From Rhodospirillales bacterium (GTDB lineage Bacteria > Pseudomonadota > Alphaproteobacteria > Rhodospirillales > Defluviicoccaceae), in assembly GCA_025458035.1 (NCBI GenBank), contig JALOTH010000004.1, forward strand, positions 1 to 41,804: a DNA stretch of 41,804 nucleotides, read 5' to 3'. The notes below the pieces were generated by a model. It did not search any database, was not told the origin of the DNA, and saw nothing but the letters and a program-made list of their open reading frames with translations. A program made the position numbers and the translations under genes. Of this stretch, positions 9,713-23,819 are shown one piece after another (positions within the stretch are counted from its first letter, which is position 1; each line of letters starts with the position of its first letter).

Positions 9713-11920
9713 CTACTCGACGGTGACGAAATTGGGCTCGGGGATCGGCGTGCATACCTGCCCGCCGTCGCGCAGTTCGGCGGCGATGACGAGCCAGCGT
9801 TCGAGGTCGGGATGCACCGGCCCGTCCTCGCCAAAGTAGCGCTCGCGCACCTGTCGCAGGAGATGCCAGCCTTCGCTCACCCGCTCCTGGCGCTCGTGCC
9901 AGCCGGCGCTGCCATGTCGCTGATCTTCGGTCAGAACCGACAAGATGAGGATCAGCCCCGCCTCGTAATCGCACAGCAGCGGCAGCTCCCGCGGCCGCAC
10001 CGGCCAGACCGCTTCCAGGATGCGCGGCCGCCGCATCTGTATTGCCCAGATATCGCGCAGCAGGTCCCAATCGGCTTTCGCCTCGTCATGGCGGCCGAGA
10101 TGGTGGCGCATCCGCGCCCGCATGTAGAGGTAGGACACCTCGACGACGCCATCCTCGCCAGCGGCGTCGATGGCCAGGGTTAGGAGATATTCGGCGCGCT
10201 CGCGGCCGTCACGCTGCTCAGCGGGGGTGACGGCCCGGCGCAACAACTCGCCGCTGGCGTCCTTCGGCCGGCACTCGGTCATCCGCGCCCACAGATAGCG
10301 CTCGAGCGAACGCTCCCAGTGGGCAAGCTTGGCCGTTGCGTACTGCTCGGTACGCCGCAACGCCAACGGCTGTGCCGGCGCCACCTCAAAGGACTGCCAG
10401 TCGATGGTCCAGCCGACGTACAGGCTATGCGGCGCCGGCTGGCGATCACCGACCGTCATCCAGATCTCGTCGCGCCGCGCCTCGCCCCCGGGATCGCCGC
10501 GAACGATGCTCGCCATCTGGCCATAGACCTTCCGCGGCACCCGTCCGTAGCTGCGCAGGGCGGCGATGCCGTCGGCCGGACGGCCGGTGCGCAACGCGAT
10601 CTCGGCCAGCAACTGATCCTGGCCGGAGGCCAGCAGGTCAATCGCCCATGGCGTGTCGACGGCTCCCGCCGCCGCTGCCAAGCGGTCCTCCACCAGTTCG
10701 AAGCGGGCCCGCGTCTCCAGCCACTTGCCGAAGCTCGCGGTGAAGTGGCCATCGGTGACGTCAAACAGCCGTTCGACCATATCCGCGCCGAGGAAATGGT
10801 TGGTCTGCGCCATCCAGTGCCGATCGCAACGGCTGACGTGCACGGCCTCGCCGTTGACCTCGATACGCAAGGCATCGCCTCGGCGGGCGTCGGAGCAGAA
10901 AAACGTCCAGGCCGCGAAATGCCGCCGTGACCGCACGATGTCCACCGCGTCGTCGAGGCTGGCCGCATCCCGCAGCAAACGCTGCTGAACGAATGGCGCG
11001 ATGTCGCCCTCGCCGACGGCCGCGCCCAGCGCTATGCGCGTCGTCGACAACTGATGCAGGGAAACGGCGAGTCCCTTTTCATTCAGGCCGCTGACGCCGC
11101 CGGGGTACAGCAGGCCGGCGGTGGCGAACGCCACGTAGCGGCAGCGGCCACCGTCTGCCGTCTCGTCCGTGAGGAACAGGATGGGCGCTCGATTCCACCG
11201 GTAAAGGTCCGCATCGAGGCTGCGCGCATGGAGATGCCGGCCGTCCCTGGTCAGGCTGGCGGGTACCGCGAACGCGGTGCAGGCAAAGTCCCAGCGGGTG
11301 TTGGGGTGGGACATCTGCGCCAGTATCGCCGCGATCGCCGCGCCGGCCGCGGGGTCGCCGGCGGCCGCCGCCAGTTGCGCCGCCGCCTCCGCATCGGTGA
11401 GGCCGGGCGATACCAGCGCTGACAGCCGCTGGGCCATTTCGGCCCGGGCGAGCGGTAGCGCCAGGCGTCGGGCCACTCCCGCAATGAGATTGCCGACCTC
11501 AATCGCCACCAGGGCATCGAAGATCTGCTGCCGTCCGTAGCGGGGGGTTGCGGTCGCCCCGAGGTAGCCGTCCGCCAGCGCCATCACCGCTTCACGGAAC
11601 TCATCGCTGGCACCGCTCAGCACCCGATCGGACATGGCACGGTGAACAGCGGCAGCGATGCGATGGTCAAGCCGGCTGCCCAGGTTGATGCTGCGCTCGC
11701 TGGTAGCGGTGATCTCCGGCAGGACGCCGTCCTCGATCTCGCTGGCCAGCAAGCGGCCGTGATCGAAAGCGATGTCGGCGAACCGCCCGCGCTGCTTGAG
11801 GAGGAGGAACGTCTTGCCCGCCGCCTTCAGCCGGTGAAGCGCGCTGTCCGCCCGCGCCTCACCGGACGGCAGCCGCTGCGGCAACGCATCGAGGCCATCG
11901 ATCCTCCCGCTGACGCCCAT
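9713..11920 (-). CDS. C45-family Ntn hydrolase (acyltransferase-like) with long C-terminal extension
   Basis: 735 residues. The first half is a C45/AAT-type Ntn hydrolase, related to acyl-CoA:6-aminopenicillanic acid acyltransferase and linear-amide hydrolases. Features are GRFADIAFDHGRLLASEI near the N-terminus, the likely autocatalytic cleavage site before Cys214 (DFA|CTAF), then ARSLDAD and a GGVSGLNEKGLAVSLHQL core. Cleavage would expose Cys214 as nucleophile and produce two chains. Roughly residues 480-735 are an additional helical region without a recognised motif; family members are often shorter. No signal peptide is seen. ATG 11920 follows AAGGGG at good spacing, so 21 upstream codons are dropped. 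Its substrate is unknown. It is last in a same-strand row after ppsR (93 bp gap). Confidence 0.75.
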   Translation of the reverse strand: MGVSGRIDGLDALPQRLPSGEARADSALHRLKAAGKTFLLLKQRGRFADIAFDHGRLLASEIEDGVLPEITATSERSINLGSRLDHRIAAAVHRAMSDRVLSGASDEFREAVMALADGYLGATATPRYGRQQIFDALVAIEVGNLIAGVARRLALPLARAEMAQRLSALVSPGLTDAEAAAQLAAAAGDPAAGAAIAAILAQMSHPNTRWDFACTAFAVPASLTRDGRHLHARSLDADLYRWNRAPILFLTDETADGGRCRYVAFATAGLLYPGGVSGLNEKGLAVSLHQLSTTRIALGAAVGEGDIAPFVQQRLLRDAASLDDAVDIVRSRRHFAAWTFFCSDARRGDALRIEVNGEAVHVSRCDRHWMAQTNHFLGADMVERLFDVTDGHFTASFGKWLETRARFELVEDRLAAAAGAVDTPWAIDLLASGQDQLLAEIALRTGRPADGIAALRSYGRVPRKVYGQMASIVRGDPGGEARRDEIWMTVGDRQPAPHSLYVGWTIDWQSFEVAPAQPLALRRTEQYATAKLAHWERSLERYLWARMTECRPKDASGELLRRAVTPAEQRDGRERAEYLLTLAIDAAGEDGVVEVSYLYMRARMRHHLGRHDEAKADWDLLRDIWAIQMRRPRILEAVWPVRPRELPLLCDYEAGLILILSVLTEDQRHGSAGWHERQERVSEGWHLLRQVRERYFGEDGPVHPDLERWLVIAAELRDGGQVCTPIPEPNFVTVE

Positions 11921-12013
11921 GACTGCCCCTTCGCTTCTCGGACGCACGCGCCGCCCGTCAGCCGTCGGTTCGGCGCCGGGCAACGAGATGTCAACGCTCG
12001 CGCCGGCGGCTGA

Positions 12014-14182: not shown

Positions 14183-16831
14183 CTACCGCGCCTGCTCGCC
14201 GTCCGGCGCCGGCACGAGCGGCGCCGCATGCGCCTGCCGCATCGCCACCACCTCACTGACGCGTCCCGCTTCCATGAGAATGACATGGTCAAACAGGCGG
14301 CGCTCATCGGGCGGCGCCTGCACGTTGATCACGCCGATGCGGGGCTCGCCATGGCGCAGGCGATCGAGGATGCGCGCTTGCGTCGTCGCTTCGATGGAGG
14401 CGAGCGCGCCATTGAAGATGACGATGTCGGGCTGCTTCAGTATGGCGCGGGCAATCGCCAGCTTCTGCCGCTGCACCGTCGGCAGCCGCTGGCCGCCGAT
14501 GCCGACTTCAAAGCCGAGGCCGATTTCGATGATCTCGCGACGCAGCCCCGCCGCGTCGACGACCTCGGAGATGAGAGCGCCAATGGCCCGCTGACTTTGC
14601 GGACGGCCGTAGACGAGCTTGCCGAAAAGGATGTTGTCCTGAACGGATGCGACGGCGTTGTAGTGCTCTTCCTGGAAGAAGGCGATCGTCCCCTGCAACG
14701 CCGGCGGCAGGTTGGCGGCGAACATGCGGCGCGCGCTCAGCAGCTTTTCGAGATTGTCGTCGGTCAGGATGCCGAGACGGTGACGCGCCGGTACCAGTTG
14801 AAACGGCAATGACGTCAGCAGGTTGCGGTCTTCCGCGGAGATGCCGTCGAGGGACGTGGCGTCGGCGCGCCGGGTCGCCGCCTGATATTCCGGCAGCGCT
14901 TCGGCGCTGATGAAGCTGAAGCGCTCGAACAGCGGATCGCCGGCTTCGACACCGCTGAACAGATCGACCATCAGCCGCGCCACCTGCAGGCCCCACGCCA
15001 GAAAGACGCGGCTGAGGCCGCATTCCTCAAGAACCGCCCGCATGTAGGAATTCTGGCCAATGTGCTCGAGATCGAAGGTATGACCGATGGGCAGACCAAA
15101 CAGGATGTTTTCCGCCACCGACATGTTGGAGTTGTAGCGATGGGGATCGAACGGCTCGACGAGGCCCCGGTAGGCGGGCTCGCCGAGGCGCGCGCGCAGC
15201 AGCGTTCGCGCTTCACGGATGCGCTGGGCGAGCCCCGGTTCGCGCGCGGGATCGAGGGTGCCGCGCAAACCGTACTGAAAAACGTCGCTCTCCAGCTCCA
15301 CCGTATCGAGCACGCCGATCACCCGCTCCGTCAGGGAGGCGCGGTCGCGGGCAGCGGCGGCGGCATAATCGATCCAGTCCGCCGCCAGATCGCTCGCCGT
15401 ATTGCCCGCCAGCGCCGCTTCCCGTTCGTAACGCCCATGGCGGGCGCGCGCCTCGTCGTCCCGTTCGGGCGGCTGTCGGGGCTGGCGTTTCAGCGGATAG
15501 AACAGATTATCGGCAATCGTCCCCAGCATCAGTGGCGTACTCGCACCCACATACGCGATCCGTTGTCCGGTCACGGTCTCCGGCAAGGTCGCCAGGTTGT
15601 CCGCTCCGATATGGATGCTGCCACTGCTCGGCTGAAGCAGGCGCGCAAACAGCATGGCCAGAATGTCAGCCCCGGCGCCGCTTGGCGCGGCGATCGCCAC
15701 CGCCTCGTCGATACCGAAGCTCACGGACACGCCATCCACCAGTCTGATCCCCGATTCGTCCTCATAGGTGAGGTTACGGGCGATCAGCCGCCCGTGCAGC
15801 CGCGGCACCTCGCCGGCGGGTGCGAGAAGCAGCGCTTCGTCGAGCATGGCCGGCGGATGGAACTGTTCCACCACCTGCTCATACTTGATTCGGGCGTCTT
15901 CCTTTTGCTGGTACCAGTCAAGCAGTTCCTTCCACGGCGACGACAGGTCCTTGTAGGCGGCGAGCACGGCGACGAGAGCGCCGAAGGTGAGGTTGCCCTT
16001 GATCACCAGGTAACCGCCGATCGAATAAAAGAAAAACGGCGTCACCTGCGCCAAAAAATTATTGAGAAATTTGATAAAAAATTTCTTTTTATAGATACGA
16101 AACCTGATATCGAGAATGGTTCCAGCCCAGTGTGAAAACCCCGCGCGATGATATTCGCTTGTGGAATTTGCGTGAATTTCTTCAATCGTCGTGACTGTTT
16201 CGCCGATACGTTCCGACAGCCGGCGGACCGCTTTGACCCGCTCCTTCGACAGTTGGTTGACCTGCCGCTGCAGTTTCGGGATGAAGTAAATCTGGAACGG
16301 ATACAGCGAGATGGCGGCGAGCCCAAGCGCCCAGTCCTGTACAAACATGAAGGTCAGAATGGTCAGCAGCGTGCCGCCCTGAAACATCGGTTGGGCGACC
16401 GCATCGCCAATAAAGTTGCCAAGGGTTTCGACCTCGGCAGTCATCATCGCGATCAATTCACCCTGCGAGGCGCGGCGAAAGTGCGGTACCGGAAAACGAA
16501 GCGTGCGACAGAACATCTGGTAGCGCAGACGCCGCAGCATGCGTTCGCCGACAATACCCTTATAGACATTTATGACATACTTAAACCCACCATTTATCGC
16601 AACCAACAAAAGAAAGCCGGCACAAAGAAAGGCGAGATAATCAAGCTGGTCAAATTCAAAACCAGCTATCGATTTTGGAAACGTTTTTCCGCCGATCGCC
16701 TGATTGATGATTAATTTGGGAAGTTCGAGAGAATAGTAAAGAAACGGAAACGACAACAGCGTAATAACCAGCAGTTGTAGCTGCTGCTGCCAGCTATACT
16801 TAAAGATATATTTGAAAAGCGTTGGCTCCAT
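14183..16831 (-). CDS. ABC exporter-like fusion protein with expanded, degenerate nucleotide-binding domain
   Basis: 882 residues. Residues about 1-325 form an ABC exporter type I membrane domain (several hydrophobic helices, including LLVITLLSFPFLYYS and FLCAGFLLLVAI). The rest is an ATPase-like domain about twice the usual size. Its key residues are lost. The P-loop reads APSGAGADI with Ala388 in place of Lys. The Walker B end reads IVIFNG, with Asn807 for Asp and Gly808 for the catalytic Glu. The H-loop His is not evident, and the signature is GIGGQ (about 777-781). Three copies of an (E/D)NxLF(Y/G) motif occur (near 440, 574 and 732) where exporters have one. ATP hydrolysis is therefore doubtful. 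It is followed by the cNMP-binding gene and diverges from the glycan operon. Base composition changes within the gene (see findings). No clear ribosome binding site precedes ATG 16831. Confidence 0.82.
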   Translation of the reverse strand: MEPTLFKYIFKYSWQQQLQLLVITLLSFPFLYYSLELPKLIINQAIGGKTFPKSIAGFEFDQLDYLAFLCAGFLLLVAINGGFKYVINVYKGIVGERMLRRLRYQMFCRTLRFPVPHFRRASQGELIAMMTAEVETLGNFIGDAVAQPMFQGGTLLTILTFMFVQDWALGLAAISLYPFQIYFIPKLQRQVNQLSKERVKAVRRLSERIGETVTTIEEIHANSTSEYHRAGFSHWAGTILDIRFRIYKKKFFIKFLNNFLAQVTPFFFYSIGGYLVIKGNLTFGALVAVLAAYKDLSSPWKELLDWYQQKEDARIKYEQVVEQFHPPAMLDEALLLAPAGEVPRLHGRLIARNLTYEDESGIRLVDGVSVSFGIDEAVAIAAPSGAGADILAMLFARLLQPSSGSIHIGADNLATLPETVTGQRIAYVGASTPLMLGTIADNLFYPLKRQPRQPPERDDEARARHGRYEREAALAGNTASDLAADWIDYAAAAARDRASLTERVIGVLDTVELESDVFQYGLRGTLDPAREPGLAQRIREARTLLRARLGEPAYRGLVEPFDPHRYNSNMSVAENILFGLPIGHTFDLEHIGQNSYMRAVLEECGLSRVFLAWGLQVARLMVDLFSGVEAGDPLFERFSFISAEALPEYQAATRRADATSLDGISAEDRNLLTSLPFQLVPARHRLGILTDDNLEKLLSARRMFAANLPPALQGTIAFFQEEHYNAVASVQDNILFGKLVYGRPQSQRAIGALISEVVDAAGLRREIIEIGLGFEVGIGGQRLPTVQRQKLAIARAILKQPDIVIFNGALASIEATTQARILDRLRHGEPRIGVINVQAPPDERRLFDHVILMEAGRVSEVVAMRQAHAAPLVPAPDGEQAR

Positions 16832-17008: not shown

Positions 17009-18226
17009 ATGGGCCAGCGACGTCGGCACTGTCGCCTGCTCATTTACAGCCACGACAGCTTTGGTCTCGGCCACCTGCGCCGCTGTCGCGCCATCGCCCA
17101 GGCACTGGTCAGCCATCGCCGCGACCTGACCGTGCTCATTCTCTCCGGCTCGCCGATCATCGGCAGTTTCAGCTTCTCAAGCCGCGTCGATTTTGTCCGC
17201 ATCCCCGGCGTCATCAAGCTCCGCCATGGCGATTACACCGCGCTGAGCCTCGATATGGGCATCGAGGAGATCCTGGCGATGCGCGCCGAGATCATTCGCC
17301 ACACCGCGGAAGCCTTTGCGCCCAGCATCTTTCTCGTCGACAAGGAGCCGCTCGGGTTGCGCGGCGAAGTCCGCGACACCCTGACCATGCTCAAGGCCCG
17401 CGGCGCCCTGCTGGTTCTTGGCCTGCGCGACGTCATGGATGAGCCGATGCAACTCGCCGAGGAATGGCAACGCAAGAACGCCGCCTCGGCCCTCAATGAT
17501 CTCTATGACAGCATCTGGGTCTATGGTCTGCCACAGATCTGCAACGCGCTCGAAGGCATTCGCCTGCCGGCCTCCACCCTGGCCAAGGTCCGCTACACCG
17601 GCTACCTGCGCCGGACCCTTTCCAAGCACGCGCGGACCGCCGTCGGACCCGCCAGCAGCCGCCCCTATCTCCTTGTCACCACCGGCGGCGGCGGCGACGG
17701 CGCCGCCCTCATCGACTGGGTGCTGCGTGCCTACGAACACGATCCGACCATCCCCCACCGTGCCCTGCTCGTCCTCGGACCGTTCATGCGCTCGACCCTG
17801 CAGCAGGGCTTCATGGATCGGGTGGCGCGGTTGCCGCGGGTCGAAGCCATTACCTTCGAGGCGGAAATGGAGAGCCTGATGGCCGCTGCCGACGGCATCG
17901 TCGCCATGGGCGGCTACAACACGTTCTGTGAGATCCTGTCCTTCGACAAGCCGGCGGTCATCGTGCCGCGCGAGGCACCGCGACTGGAGCAGTTCATCCG
18001 CGCGCAGCGGGCGCAGGCGCTCGGCCTCGTTCATATGCTGTCGGCGACGGAGAACCGCAGCGCGCAACGCATGGCCACGGCCCTGCATGAGCTGCCGCTG
18101 CAGCCGCGGCCGTCACAGATCCAGATCCCCGGACTTCTTGACGGGTTGTCGGTGATCGCCGGACTGGTCGATGAGTGGCTCGACCAGCCGGCGCGGCGGC
18201 TGTCGCTGATCAGCGGCAGGCCCTGA
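17009..18226 (+). CDS. COG4671/GT28-like glycosyltransferase (first of two)
   Basis: 405 residues with the GT-B fold of MurG-like enzymes. N-terminal YSHDSFGLGHLRRCRAIAQAL is the acceptor-side Gly loop. TTGGGGDG (about 225-232) opens the C-terminal half, and MGGYNTFCEIL followed by KPAVIVPREAPRLEQ is the usual nucleotide-sugar-binding region. It should transfer a sugar from a nucleotide donor in the cytoplasm; donor and acceptor are unknown. ATG 17009 has GGAGG seven bases upstream. First gene of a nine-gene operon; the GT4 gene follows after 11 bp. Its partner at 19522 has the same fold but differs enough to suggest a separate specificity. Confidence 0.85.
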   Translation: MGQRRRHCRLLIYSHDSFGLGHLRRCRAIAQALVSHRRDLTVLILSGSPIIGSFSFSSRVDFVRIPGVIKLRHGDYTALSLDMGIEEILAMRAEIIRHTAEAFAPSIFLVDKEPLGLRGEVRDTLTMLKARGALLVLGLRDVMDEPMQLAEEWQRKNAASALNDLYDSIWVYGLPQICNALEGIRLPASTLAKVRYTGYLRRTLSKHARTAVGPASSRPYLLVTTGGGGDGAALIDWVLRAYEHDPTIPHRALLVLGPFMRSTLQQGFMDRVARLPRVEAITFEAEMESLMAAADGIVAMGGYNTFCEILSFDKPAVIVPREAPRLEQFIRAQRAQALGLVHMLSATENRSAQRMATALHELPLQPRPSQIQIPGLLDGLSVIAGLVDEWLDQPARRLSLISGRP

Positions 18227-18237
18227 GCCAGCCCGTC

Positions 18238-19512
18238 GTGGCCACGGCCGTCGCCTTTGTGCTCAAGGGCTATCCGCGCCTATCCGAGACCTTCATAGCC
18301 CAGGAGATTCGCGGTCTCGAAGAACTGGGCCTGACGCTGCGCCTGTACTCGCTGCGCCGGCCGACCGATACCGCCGTTCACCCCGTCCACCGGGAAATTC
18401 GCGCTCCCGTCGCCTATCTCCCCGAGTATCTGCATGAGGAACCTGGGCGCGTGCTGCGCAGCTGGTGGGCGCTGCGGCGAACGCCGCGCTACGCCGCGGC
18501 GCGCCGCCTGTTCATTGCCGACTGGCGCCGCGACCGCAGCCGCAACCGGCTGCGCCGCTTCGGCCAGGCACTGGTCCTTGCCCACGAGCTCGCCGCGGAT
18601 GTCGGCTGGCTGCATGCCCATTTCCTCCACACCCCCGCCTCCGTCGTCCGCTATGCCAGCGCCCTGCTCGGCATGCCATGGAGTGTTTCGGCGCACGCCA
18701 AGGACGTGTGGACGACACCATCGTGGGAGCTGCGGGAGAAGCTGGCCGACTGCCGCTGGCTGGTCACCTGTACCCGCGCCGGCGCCGACCACCTGCGGCG
18801 CCATGCGCCCGAGCCGCAGCGTGTGGCTCTTTTCTATCACGGCCTTGACCAGCGGCGATTTCCGCCGCCGCCGCTGCCGCGTCCGCTGCGCGATGGCGGC
18901 CATGGCGAGGAACCGGTGGTGCTGCTGTCTGTCGGCCGGGCTGTGGAAAAGAAAGGCTATGCGGTGCTGCTCGAGGCGCTGGCGCGGCTGCCGCACGCCC
19001 TCGCCTGGCGCTTCATCCACATCGGCGCCGGTCCGCTGTTGGCCCCGCTGGCGGCGCAGGCCGCCCGCCTCGGCCTCACCGCGCGAATCGAATGGCGAGG
19101 CGCGCAGCCGCAGGAGGCGGTGCTTGCCGCCTACCGGCAGGCCGATCTGTTCGTGCTGGCCAGCCGCATCGCCGCCGACGGCGACCGCGACGGTCTGCCC
19201 AACGTGCTGATGGAAGCGCAGAGTCAGGCGCTTGCCTGTGTCGCCACCCGCGTTTCCGCCGTACCGGAACTGATCGACGACGGCGAGACGGGCCTGCTCG
19301 TCGAGCCCGATGACCCCCGCGCCCTCGCCGATGCCATCGAACGGCTGATCCGCCATCCGGTGCTGCGTGTCCGGCTGGCCGTTGCCGGTCAGCGGCGGGT
19401 GGCGAAGGCGTTTGCCTTCGACGCCGGGGTGTCTCGCCTCGCCGTCCGCTTTCAGACCGCCCTCGGCGCGCCGTCCGTGCCGATGCCGCGTCTCGCCCGC
19501 CTCGAACGATAG
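18238..19512 (+). CDS. GT4-family glycosyltransferase
   Basis: 424 residues. VLKGYPRLSETFIAQEI at the N-terminus is the hallmark of GT4 polysaccharide-synthesis enzymes; LHAHFLHTPA and VSAHAKDVW form the middle acceptor region. LLSVGRAVEKKGYAVLLEAL opens the donor domain, and DGLPNVLMEAQSQALACVAT near residue 320 holds the E-x7-type catalytic/donor motif. It is predicted to add a sugar to a growing glycan on the cytoplasmic face. A GTG at 18238 is chosen because it begins directly before the family's first strand; an ATG at 18175 would overlap the previous gene by 52 bp and add a poor N-terminus. The ribosome binding site is weak, suggesting coupling to the gene before. Confidence 0.87.
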   Translation: MATAVAFVLKGYPRLSETFIAQEIRGLEELGLTLRLYSLRRPTDTAVHPVHREIRAPVAYLPEYLHEEPGRVLRSWWALRRTPRYAAARRLFIADWRRDRSRNRLRRFGQALVLAHELAADVGWLHAHFLHTPASVVRYASALLGMPWSVSAHAKDVWTTPSWELREKLADCRWLVTCTRAGADHLRRHAPEPQRVALFYHGLDQRRFPPPPLPRPLRDGGHGEEPVVLLSVGRAVEKKGYAVLLEALARLPHALAWRFIHIGAGPLLAPLAAQAARLGLTARIEWRGAQPQEAVLAAYRQADLFVLASRIAADGDRDGLPNVLMEAQSQALACVATRVSAVPELIDDGETGLLVEPDDPRALADAIERLIRHPVLRVRLAVAGQRRVAKAFAFDAGVSRLAVRFQTALGAPSVPMPRLARLER

Positions 19513-19521
19513 CGGCCGGTC

Positions 19522-20667
19522 GTGGCTGTCCGCATTTTTTTCTACGTTCAGCACCTCCTCGGCATCGGTCACCTCAAGCGGGCTTCGGTGCTGGCCAACG
19601 CCATGGCAACCGCCGGGTTCGATGTCGCCGTCGCCGTCGGCGGCGGCGATATGCCGTACATCCGCTTTCCGGGGTGCAGCCGCGTTCTGCTGCCGCCCGT
19701 GCGCGCCGCCGACGCCAGCTTCAAGGTTCTGCTGGACGCCGACGGTGCCCCCATCGACGCCGCGTTTCGCGACCGGCGCGCCCATCGCCTGGTTTCCGAG
19801 TTCGCGGCGTTGCACCCGCAGATCCTGCTGATTGAACAGTTTCCGTTCGGCCGGCGGCAGTTCCGTTTCGAGTTGATGCCGCTTCTCGAAGCCGCCCGCA
19901 GCCGGCGGCCGCCGCCGCTGATCGTCTGCTCGCTGCGCGACATCCTGGTGCACAAGCACGATCCCGAGCGGACGCGCGAGATGCTGGCGATCGCCAGCCG
20001 CTTTTTCGATCGCATTCTCGTGCATGGCGATCCGCAGCTGATCCCGCTGGACGCCAGCTTTCCGTACGTGGCGCAGTTGCGGGAAAAGATCACCTACACC
20101 GGCTATGTATGTGAACCAGCGGCGGCCGACGCCGGCGGCGGCAGCGAGGGGCGCGATGAGGTCATCGTCATGGCCGGCGGCGGCGCCGTCGGCGCGCCGC
20201 TGATGCGCCTTGCCCTCGCCGCCCGACCGCAGACTTCGCTCGCTGACAGCGTCTGGCGCCTGATCACCGGTCCGAACCTGGATGCGGCCGCCTTCGCCGA
20301 GTTCGCCGGGCAGCGGCAATCCGGCGTCATCGTCGAACGATGGCGCAGCGATGTGCGGGCGCTGTTGAGGCGCGCACGCCTTGCCATCAGCCAAGGTGGC
20401 TACAACACGATCATGGATCTGCTGGCAACGGGAGTGCCGGCGGTGGTCGTGCCCTTTGCCAGCGAGACGGAAACCGAACAGCGGCGGCGCGTCCGCGCCT
20501 TGGCGGCGCTCCGCGCGCTGACGGCCTGCGAGGCGGACGGCCAGTCACCGAATCTTCTTGCGGCGGCGATTGAACAAGCCTTGACGAGCCCGCCCGCCAT
20601 CGTCGACGTTGATTTGCGGGGAGCGGAGACGACGGCGGTGCTGCTATCGCGATGGGTCACCGGATGA
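19522..20667 (+). CDS. COG4671/GT28-like glycosyltransferase (second of two)
   Basis: 381 residues, GT-B fold like the operon's first gene: FFYVQHLLGIGHLKRASVLANAM at the N-terminus, VMAGGGAVG opening the second half, and SQGGYNTIMDLLATGVPAVVVPF near residue 295 as donor-binding region. The protein therefore most likely uses a nucleotide sugar. It starts with GTG 9 bp after the GT4 stop, and no better in-frame start exists nearby. Two such enzymes flanking a GT4 gene suggests a glycan with at least three different linkages, made stepwise. The deacetylase-like gene follows 19 bp later. Confidence 0.83.
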   Translation: MAVRIFFYVQHLLGIGHLKRASVLANAMATAGFDVAVAVGGGDMPYIRFPGCSRVLLPPVRAADASFKVLLDADGAPIDAAFRDRRAHRLVSEFAALHPQILLIEQFPFGRRQFRFELMPLLEAARSRRPPPLIVCSLRDILVHKHDPERTREMLAIASRFFDRILVHGDPQLIPLDASFPYVAQLREKITYTGYVCEPAAADAGGGSEGRDEVIVMAGGGAVGAPLMRLALAARPQTSLADSVWRLITGPNLDAAAFAEFAGQRQSGVIVERWRSDVRALLRRARLAISQGGYNTIMDLLATGVPAVVVPFASETETEQRRRVRALAALRALTACEADGQSPNLLAAAIEQALTSPPAIVDVDLRGAETTAVLLSRWVTG

Positions 20668-20686
20668 CGGGGCCGCGGGGTTCGGC

Positions 20687-21442
20687 GTGAGTGGCTGGGG
20701 TTCGCTCCTGCGCGAGTTGGAGGCTTGGGCTGATGCTGGGCGGGTGGCCAACTTCTGGTGGCGCGATGACGACGCGATCGCGGTGACGCCTGCGCTCGAA
20801 CGCCTGCTCGCCATCGCACGGCGCTGCGGTATCCCTTTGGCTCTTGCGGTCATTCCACGCGACGCCGATGATGGACTGGCGGCGCGGTTGCAGGGCGAGC
20901 CGGCGGTCAGCGTCCTGCAGCACGGCTTTGCCCACCACAATCATGCTCCCGATGGGGCGCGGCAGGAGGAATATGGGCCGCATCGGCCCCGTCAGACGAT
21001 GATCGACGAACTCGCGGACGGCCGCCGGCGGCTATCGCGGTTTCCCCGCAGCCTGCCGGTGATGGTCGCGCCGTGGAACCGGATGGACGACGCGCTGCTG
21101 CCAGCCTTGCCGGCCGCCGGCCTGGCGGCGGTTTCGACGCTGGGTCCGCGCCCCGCCGCCGAACCGGTGCCGGGCGTTCGGCGCACCAACGTTCATGCCG
21201 ACATCGTCGATTGGGCCGGCAGCGGCGGTTTCATCGGGCTCGACCGCGCCATCGCACAGATCATCGATCATCTGCGGGCGCGCCGCCACGCCGAGGTCGA
21301 TGCCGAGGAGCCGACCGGGCTGATGACGCACCATCTTTTCCATGATGACGGCTGCTGGTGGTTCATCGAGGAGTTGTTCCAGCGCACCCGCCGGCACCCT
21401 GGCGCCCGCTGGCTGCCAGCGAGCGAGGCCTTCTGGCCATGA
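20687..21442 (+). CDS. Polysaccharide deacetylase-like protein
   Basis: 251 residues. NFWWRDDDA (about 22-30) resembles motif 1 of NodB-type deacetylases (metal-binding Asp), and HGFAHHNH (about 83-90) fits motif 2 with two metal-binding His. APWNRMD and the C-terminal LMTHHLFHD look like motifs 3 and 5. It probably removes an acetyl or other acyl group from a sugar. There is no signal peptide, so unlike many family members it should act in the cytoplasm, on the intermediate made by the adjacent glycosyltransferases. The start is a GTG at 20687, placed by the family N-terminus and a GCGGGG upstream. Its stop overlaps the next gene's ATG (ATGA). Confidence 0.75.
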   Translation: MSGWGSLLRELEAWADAGRVANFWWRDDDAIAVTPALERLLAIARRCGIPLALAVIPRDADDGLAARLQGEPAVSVLQHGFAHHNHAPDGARQEEYGPHRPRQTMIDELADGRRRLSRFPRSLPVMVAPWNRMDDALLPALPAAGLAAVSTLGPRPAAEPVPGVRRTNVHADIVDWAGSGGFIGLDRAIAQIIDHLRARRHAEVDAEEPTGLMTHHLFHDDGCWWFIEELFQRTRRHPGARWLPASEAFWP

Positions 21443-21920
21443 CCACGCATGCCTATCCGCCGTCGGCGGCGATCGCCGACGGCAGCCGGGCCGCTCTCGG
21501 CATCGCCATCGCCGCCGCGCCTCTGCTGTTCGCGCAGCCGGCGCCGGTGATCACCGGCCTGCTCATCGGGCTGCTGCTGGCGTTCCTCGGCCTTGGTGTG
21601 TCGACACTGCATCGCCATCTCGGCCGCGTCGTCGTCGATGCCGAGGGCCTCAGCGTCAATCGGCGCCGGTTGCCCTGGTCGGAAGTGCGGGGGATCCGTC
21701 TCGCCTACTTCTCGACCCGCCGGGACCGGGATCATGGCTGGTTTCAGTTGACCCTGACGGGCCGTGACCGGCGCCTGTGCATCGACTCGGCGCTGGACGG
21801 CTTCCTCGCTGTCGCCAAACGCGCCGCGCTGGCGGCGGACACCAACGGCATCGCCGTCGACGCGGCGACGCGCGCCAATTTCGACGCTCTCGCCATCCCC
21901 TTGCCGCGACAGGGTGCGGG

Positions 21921-21924
<4 letters not shown>
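21439..21924 (+). CDS. Small membrane protein with two helices and a PH-like soluble domain (unknown)
   Basis: 161 residues, not assigned to a family. Two adjacent hydrophobic segments (about 20-36 and 42-60: GIAIAAAPLLFA and ITGLLIGLLLAFLGLGV) are followed by a soluble beta-rich part (about 70-120: VVVDAEGLSVNRRRLPWSEVRGIRL) of the kind seen in bacterial PH-like membrane proteins. Overlaps of 4 bp on both sides, with the deacetylase-like gene and the ATPase gene, join the glycan half and the transporter half of the operon, so it may be an accessory of either. The overlap fixes the start. Confidence 0.7.

Positions 21925-23815
<1,891 letters not shown>

Positions 23816-23819
<4 letters not shown>

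Follow-up and report, generated by a model that had tools for sequence, protein, structure and literature searches.

An ABC exporter-like gene of the window, i.e., the whole 41,804-nucleotide stretch of DNA analysed here, was originally predicted to encode an ATPase domain that has lost its catalytic residues while the remainder of the protein is intact. The locus thereby raises the question of what an exporter-like protein (termed pseudo-ABC in the following) could do without ATP hydrolysis.

Catalytic residues and predicted fold

The pseudo-ABC reading frame starts with ATG at position 16831 and comprises 882 codons with zero internal stops (14183-16831; Table 1). Pfam assigns an ABC_membrane domain (3.1e-24; residues 65-292 when counted in a reading of 883 residues, which is one codon longer at its start than the 882-residue frame) and a weakly matching ABC_tran domain (7.3e-9) as the only domains, a C39 peptidase domain being absent from the protein. 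The prediction of an intact membrane domain in an untruncated gene is thus borne out. Residues were assigned by alignment to three intact exporters encoded in the same genome. The P-loop lysine, the Walker B aspartate, the catalytic glutamate and the H-loop histidine are replaced as claimed (A388, N807, G808 and A839), and beyond that claim the Mg-coordinating Ser/Thr (D389), the signature, the Q-loop glutamine (A430) and the D-loop aspartate (E814) are replaced as well. Consequently, neither the Walker A motif GxxGxGK[ST] nor the signature LSGGQ of an active type IV exporter is present, the latter reading LPTVQ. A pattern search of the entire protein for a displaced Walker A motif (G or A-x4-GK[ST]) or signature ([LIVM]SGG[QE]) found none. 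In addition, the protein reaches 152.6 bits with the NCBIfam MsbA equivalog model, the cut-off of which is 602. Judged from its sequence, the window protein is an ABC exporter-fold protein with a degenerate catalytic set.

Pfam, AF2 and VIA-align agree on a type IV exporter fold, in which a six-helix TMD is followed by an ABC NBD on one chain. The AF2 model has a mean pLDDT of 80.6, with values of about 90 across most of the NBD and low values in the TMD around residues 149-177 and 295-301. Compared with exporters and their NBDs, the model obtains VIA-align Z values of 26-29: the superposition of the predicted NBD (residues 343-866) with that of ComA covers 226 of 239 residues at 1.9 A (Z 28.6), and about 400-450 residues of the entire chain superpose on TM287/288, PCAT1, TmrAB and MsbA. 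According to these superpositions, the core fold of the NBD is kept and approximately 280-300 residues have been inserted into it.

The insert is located between Q-loop and signature, and profiles of family sub-alignments reveal in it a repeated NBD segment of the form 'Q-loop strand - [DE]N[IL]xxG - helix - GL'. In hhalign comparisons, modules 2 and 3 match over about 63 columns with a probability of 98-99% (P 2e-14 to 7e-18), the similarity of module 2 being demonstrated for approximately its first 65 residues, while the match of module 1 to module 2 or 3 is weaker (80-93%, P 3e-7 to 1.5e-5). As a control, family segments outside the modules reached at most 4.7% probability against the three modules, and a segment overlapping module 2 reached 24.8% against that module. 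Our reading of the insert is that the Q-loop/helical subdomain has been triplicated, its last copy leading into the signature helix.

Table 1. Positions of the pseudo-ABC features, of the neighbouring genes and of relatives devoid of an NBD
Feature	Position	Strand	Evidence and remarks
Pseudo-ABC exporter gene, 882 aa	14183..16831	-	Pfam, alignment, AF2, residue positions
Transmembrane domain, residues 1-323	15863..16831	-	ABC_membrane; AF2, six long helices; best-conserved family region
Pseudo-NBD N part, residues 347-418	15578..15793	-	Pfam ABC_tran, AF2
Walker A site, K to A388 and S/T to D389	15665..15670	-	Alignment, residue positions
Q-loop/helical module 1, residues 419-548	15188..15577	-	Canonical position, Q to A430; profile comparison
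Q-loop/helical module 2, residues 549-704	14720..15187	-	Extra copy; hhalign against module 3
Q-loop/helical module 3, residues 705-797	14441..14719	-	Runs into signature helix; profile comparison
Signature, S-G-G to P784-T785-V786 (LSGGQ to LPTVQ)	14474..14482	-	Alignment, residue positions
Walker B, D to N807, and catalytic E to G808	14408..14413	-	Alignment, residue positions
H-loop, H to A839	14315..14317	-	Alignment, residue positions
CNB protein, 159 aa	13689..14168	-	Pfam cNMP_binding 1.3e-20; cassette GEMGILRNRARSA
Glycosyltransferase, GT28-C/MJ1255-like, divergent	17009..18226	+	Pfam, NCBIfam
GT4 glycosyltransferase, EpsE/WcaL-like	18175..19512	+	Pfam, NCBIfam
Second GT28-C-like glycosyltransferase	19522..20667	+	Pfam, NCBIfam
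Neighbour protein	20609..21442	+	Without Pfam or NCBIfam match
NBD-less relatives	L089:8464-9765, L090:8912-10171, L091:8516-9727, L219:7868-9091, L220:7543-8817

Distribution, degeneration and selection in the family

Relatives of the window protein occur in 32 of the 60 nearest genomes (E <= 1e-30). With a 19-row profile (E <= 1e-80) they were detected in 132 of 385 sampled genomes of Alphaproteobacteria, approximately one third, while a phylum-wide draw of 398 genomes contained 30 with the family, 29 being Alphaproteobacteria. The window's own genome is counted here, as are a few matches that are partial or confined to the membrane domain. A GTDB scan yielded 26 loci, mostly from Rhodospirillales and Azospirillum, those outside Alphaproteobacteria belonging to Granulosicoccus and to a MAG labelled Marinimicrobia. 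Moreover, 271 plasmid records gave a match (E <= 1e-60), including 144 from Rhizobium and 80 from Sinorhizobium as well as some from Azospirillum. The window protein is 57-59% identical to its congeners, with which it also shares neighbouring genes. The window and 158 further loci provided 160 family ORFs, of which 150 are near full length and, owing to three identical pairs from two collections, 147 are unique. Existing annotations of the family, such as 'ABC transporter ATP-binding protein' or 'Crp/Fnr family transcriptional regulator', are in both cases probably misleading. The pSymB record of S. meliloti 1021 is without annotation; SMb20813, which has been termed an msbA homologue (PMC10945364), may be the family member of this strain.

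Among the 147 unique members, the Walker A lysine is kept in 72 and replaced by arginine in 55, and the adjoining S/T is kept in 19, with aspartate in 57 and glutamate in 46. The Q-loop glutamine is found in 34 members, the signature serine in 87, the first and the second signature glycine in 14 each, the Walker B aspartate in 29 (asparagine in 69, serine in 35), the catalytic glutamate in 79 and the H-loop histidine in 36. Azospirillum is among the keepers of the latter residue, and the notion that it is lost nearly everywhere was rejected on this count. Since the equivalent positions are degenerate across the family, the losses in the window protein are not due to chance. None of K, S/T, D, E and H is present in 23 members, including the window protein, and all five are present in a single one (L177:6655-9351), the signature of which reads SGAQ for SGGQ. 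As the sole keeper of the five residues, L177 offers a natural case for testing whether some ATP binding persists.

The ancestry of these losses was reconstructed by parsimony on a tree from a single FastTree run, which was rooted with intact exporters and in which several deep branches are modestly supported. At the family root, the residues S/T, Q, E and H as well as the S and the first G of the signature are reconstructed as non-canonical, K and the second signature G as ambiguous, and the Walker B D as canonical; at least 26 changes between kept and lost are required for the Walker A K. Because the root is reconstructed as non-canonical at several sites, the standard ATPase site was probably lost at or before it, and the window lineage went furthest in this process. 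Hence, the predicted loss of catalytic residues holds with regard to their absence but not as the loss of a single protein, the root being already non-canonical.

Selection was assessed in twelve pairs of Azospirillum relatives, the full-length relatives of the window species being at most about 59% identical. In the nine less diverged pairs (dS up to about 0.3), dN/dS amounts to 0-0.04 for the TMD and to 0-0.23 for the N part of the NBD, the insert and the C part of the NBD, while the three most diverged pairs yield 0.10-0.15 for the TMD and 0.17-0.69 for the NBD parts. Both TMD and pseudo-NBD are under purifying selection in close Azospirillum relatives. The TMD is the best-conserved region, with a mean majority-residue frequency of 0.665 versus 0.52-0.56 elsewhere. 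The protein had been suspected to be kept for a function other than ATP-driven transport; in view of the family-wide degeneration and of dN/dS, it is maintained and very probably no ordinary ATP-driven pump. The protein may act as a regulated channel or a scaffold, as originally considered.

Furthermore, five relatives of the membrane domain, two of which stem from one genome, are devoid of an NBD. These proteins of 404-434 residues carry an N-terminal extension that contains His, and no NBD of the pseudo-ABC family was found within the surrounding 17-19 kb, so that the membrane domain of this lineage can apparently exist without an ATPase of its own; an ordinary ABC ATPase is encoded about 4.8 kb from L089. 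L092 was left out of this set: with 332 residues, it matches the membrane domain less well, and an ABC ATPase of the ordinary kind is encoded about 2 kb away. The NBD-less gene of L089 lies beside genes for a DUF305 protein, a histidine kinase and an AcrB-type RND pump.

The cyclic-nucleotide-binding partner and the neighbouring genes

Directly downstream, 14 bp past the pseudo-ABC stop codon, starts a gene whose product possesses a cNMP-binding domain (CNB) including the phosphate-binding cassette. A second Pfam domain was not found in this protein, and hence no DNA-binding domain. After 8 of the 160 ORFs had been set aside because they lack the C-terminal end, a CNB was found fused to or directly downstream of 149 of the remaining 152, in which identical copies from the two collections are counted: 33 are fused, 102 adjacent and 14 located in an overlapping or their own frame, those of L189 and L218 resting on long overlapping frames. 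No CNB was found near L208, L210 and L216. The strict cassette pattern GE-x5-10-R-[STA]-A, most commonly in the form GEIAILCDVPRTA, is present in 122 of the 135 fused or adjacent CNBs and missed by 13. Taken together, residue and cassette counts depict a family in which the ATP site is degenerate while the cyclic-nucleotide site is kept.

In ten members, the CNB is followed by a C-terminal GGDEF-like region, which Pfam recognizes as GGDEF in eight. The GG[DE][DE]F-type motif is absent from all ten tails, so that an active GGDEF output was rejected and no enzymatic output is expected from the fused region. In these fusions (L043:5998-9621 and nine others), two degenerate enzyme domains flank a single CNB sensor domain.

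A class III cyclase-like gene resides within 600 nt of the pseudo-ABC and CNB gene cassette in 11 loci, 7 times on the same strand, the query being the cyclase of R. daejeonense (BLAST, E <= 1e-8). L160, where the match overlaps the gene cassette in stop-to-stop frames, was left out, and the matches of L154 and the second one of L084 are more than 2.6 kb off. All four neighbours checked with Pfam proved to be cyclases; those of L050 and L162 are CHASE2-cyclases encoded just upstream and co-directionally, and in R. daejeonense the cyclase gene follows the CNB gene. A rough estimate based on a dozen cyclases among some 4000 genes would predict about one cyclase neighbour in 149 loci. On the genome level, class III cyclases are encoded in 129 of the 132 family-positive versus 108 of the 253 family-negative genomes, a difference in which genome size and kinship are uncorrected confounders.

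Four glycosyltransferase clusters recur in the neighbourhood, usually in divergent orientation. At least one of them is present in 99 of 149 loci, none of the four families was found in the other 50, and in 46, as in the window, the directly adjoining divergent gene belongs to a GT28-like cluster. The protein encoded at 20609-21442, which may be deacetylase-like, apparently belongs to a family that recurs near glycosyltransferases in 43 of the 149 loci. A Dpp/Opp-type importer ATPase is encoded nearby in 35 loci (in the window at 21777-23819). In a subset of loci (L136, L132, L191 and others), clusters provisionally named FtsK-, LolA- and xthA-like are found near the gene pair in 21, 16 and 31 cases, respectively, which suggests a vertically inherited location.

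Proposed function and competing readings

With regard to known systems, the type IV (formerly type I) exporters MsbA, BmrA, TmrAB, TM287/288 and PCAT1 provide the best structure matches and share both the fold and the order of TMD and NBD. Pseudo-ABC differs from them by its degenerate catalytic set and signature, the large repeat-containing NBD insert and the CNB partner. Degenerate nucleotide sites are also a feature of TAP, TmrAB, ABCC proteins, CFTR and SUR. These proteins keep at least one competent site, and CFTR and SUR illustrate that an ABC protein can act as channel or regulator. In contrast, pseudo-ABC is encoded by a single gene, its NBD is degenerate family-wide, and no partner gene was found adjoining. 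HetC of Nostoc, a PCAT, likewise links the ABC exporter fold to a CNB domain, which is reported to bind ppGpp in vitro (PMC10986499). The HetC CNB is N-terminal and the ATPase and peptidase residues are essential, whereas in pseudo-ABC the ATPase is degenerate, the peptidase absent and the CNB C-terminal or separate. A description of the pseudo-ABC family was not found in the titles and abstract openings searched, most subscription journals lying outside this search.

In the best reading, pseudo-ABC would have exchanged ATP for a cyclic nucleotide or a similar ligand and would serve, under the control of this ligand, as a gate or sensor linked to the synthesis of surface glycans. The two genes would encode one device that consists of an exporter-fold membrane protein, presumably a dimer by analogy, and a CNB subunit, with NBDs that do not hydrolyze ATP. 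The CNB may bind cAMP or cGMP supplied by class III cyclases, or instead a different nucleotide like ppGpp; because the HetC CNB reportedly binds the latter (PMC10986499), cAMP or cGMP is only a guess. Upon ligand binding, the CNB could dock on the enlarged pseudo-NBD and move the coupling helices, so that ligand binding would take the place of ATP binding in closing or moving the two pseudo-NBDs. The membrane domain would then switch its state without ATP turnover and thereby gate a small or lipid-linked glycan, made by the divergent glycosyltransferases, as it passes downhill or is flipped. Alternatively, the switched state might report the envelope condition to the glycan synthesis machinery.

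We assign about an even chance to the proposal that pseudo-ABC and CNB constitute a ligand-gated, ATP-independent device. It is favoured by the degenerate NBD, the non-canonical root, purifying selection and the near-invariant CNB with its mostly intact cassette, as well as by the cyclase neighbours and co-occurrence, the glycosyltransferases and the five NBD-less relatives, which suggest that a stand-alone membrane domain is possible. On the other hand, many relatives keep Lys or Glu and may bind ATP, the root is canonical for the Walker B Asp and ambiguous for the Lys, 108 genomes carry class III cyclases without the family, three of 152 ORFs are without a CNB, 13 of 135 cassettes are off-pattern, 50 of 149 loci are without the glycosyltransferase families, and NBD dN/dS reaches 0.17-0.69 in the three Azospirillum pairs of highest divergence. 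The more specific proposal of a cyclic-nucleotide-gated, ABC-fold conduit or flippase, which would have given up ATP and rebuilt its NBD by copying its own Q-loop/helical segment, is tentative and clearly less probable. If the device exists, it would represent a natural experiment on ABC exporter function without ATP and a second-messenger effector class without a description in the literature searched, carried by about a third of the sampled Alphaproteobacteria.

Markedly less probable than the ligand-gated device is an inward-signalling receptor, in which the TMD would sense an envelope or lipid signal that the pseudo-NBD and CNB, and in the fusions the GGDEF-like region, relay to glycan synthesis. 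C-terminal fusion to CNB and GGDEF-like signalling domains, the cyclase neighbours and the strong conservation of the TMD agree with such a role, though the missing motif in all ten GGDEF-like tails leaves no enzymatic output to be expected, and Pfam detects no DNA-binding domain in the window CNB protein.

It appears unlikely that the protein is still an ATP-driven or ATP-gated exporter employing non-canonical residues. ATP binding is possible in many relatives because Lys is kept in 72 and Glu in 79 of 147, so that this reading would concern at least the members keeping K and E, and L177 has the five residues together with SGAQ. However, D or E replaces the Walker A S/T in 103 of 147 members, 133 are without the second signature Gly, and the window protein retains none of K, S/T, D, E and H.

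Slightly less likely still is a dead half of a heterodimer whose active exporter half is encoded elsewhere. Each composite ATP site needs residues from both NBDs, which counts against this reading, as does the joint loss of Walker A, Walker B and signature in the window protein. The inactive partner of another ABC subunit that had originally been considered is disfavoured because no more than 3 of the 159 sequences searched revealed a second exporter-like ABC gene; it survives because seven other ABC_membrane proteins are encoded elsewhere in the window genome, and exporters with one degenerate site are common according to a review (PMC7756269). Finally, a decaying pseudogene, with which the membership of the window protein among the 23 without any of the five residues would be compatible, is highly improbable and was rejected on account of the intact 882-codon frame, the 57-59% identity to congeners with shared neighbours and purifying selection in relatives.

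Elsewhere in the window, a frame of 756 residues (9713-11983) matches a C45 autoproteolytic acyltransferase model (NF040521) with 92.8 bits against a cut-off of 85 and carries long extra sequence on both sides of the match.
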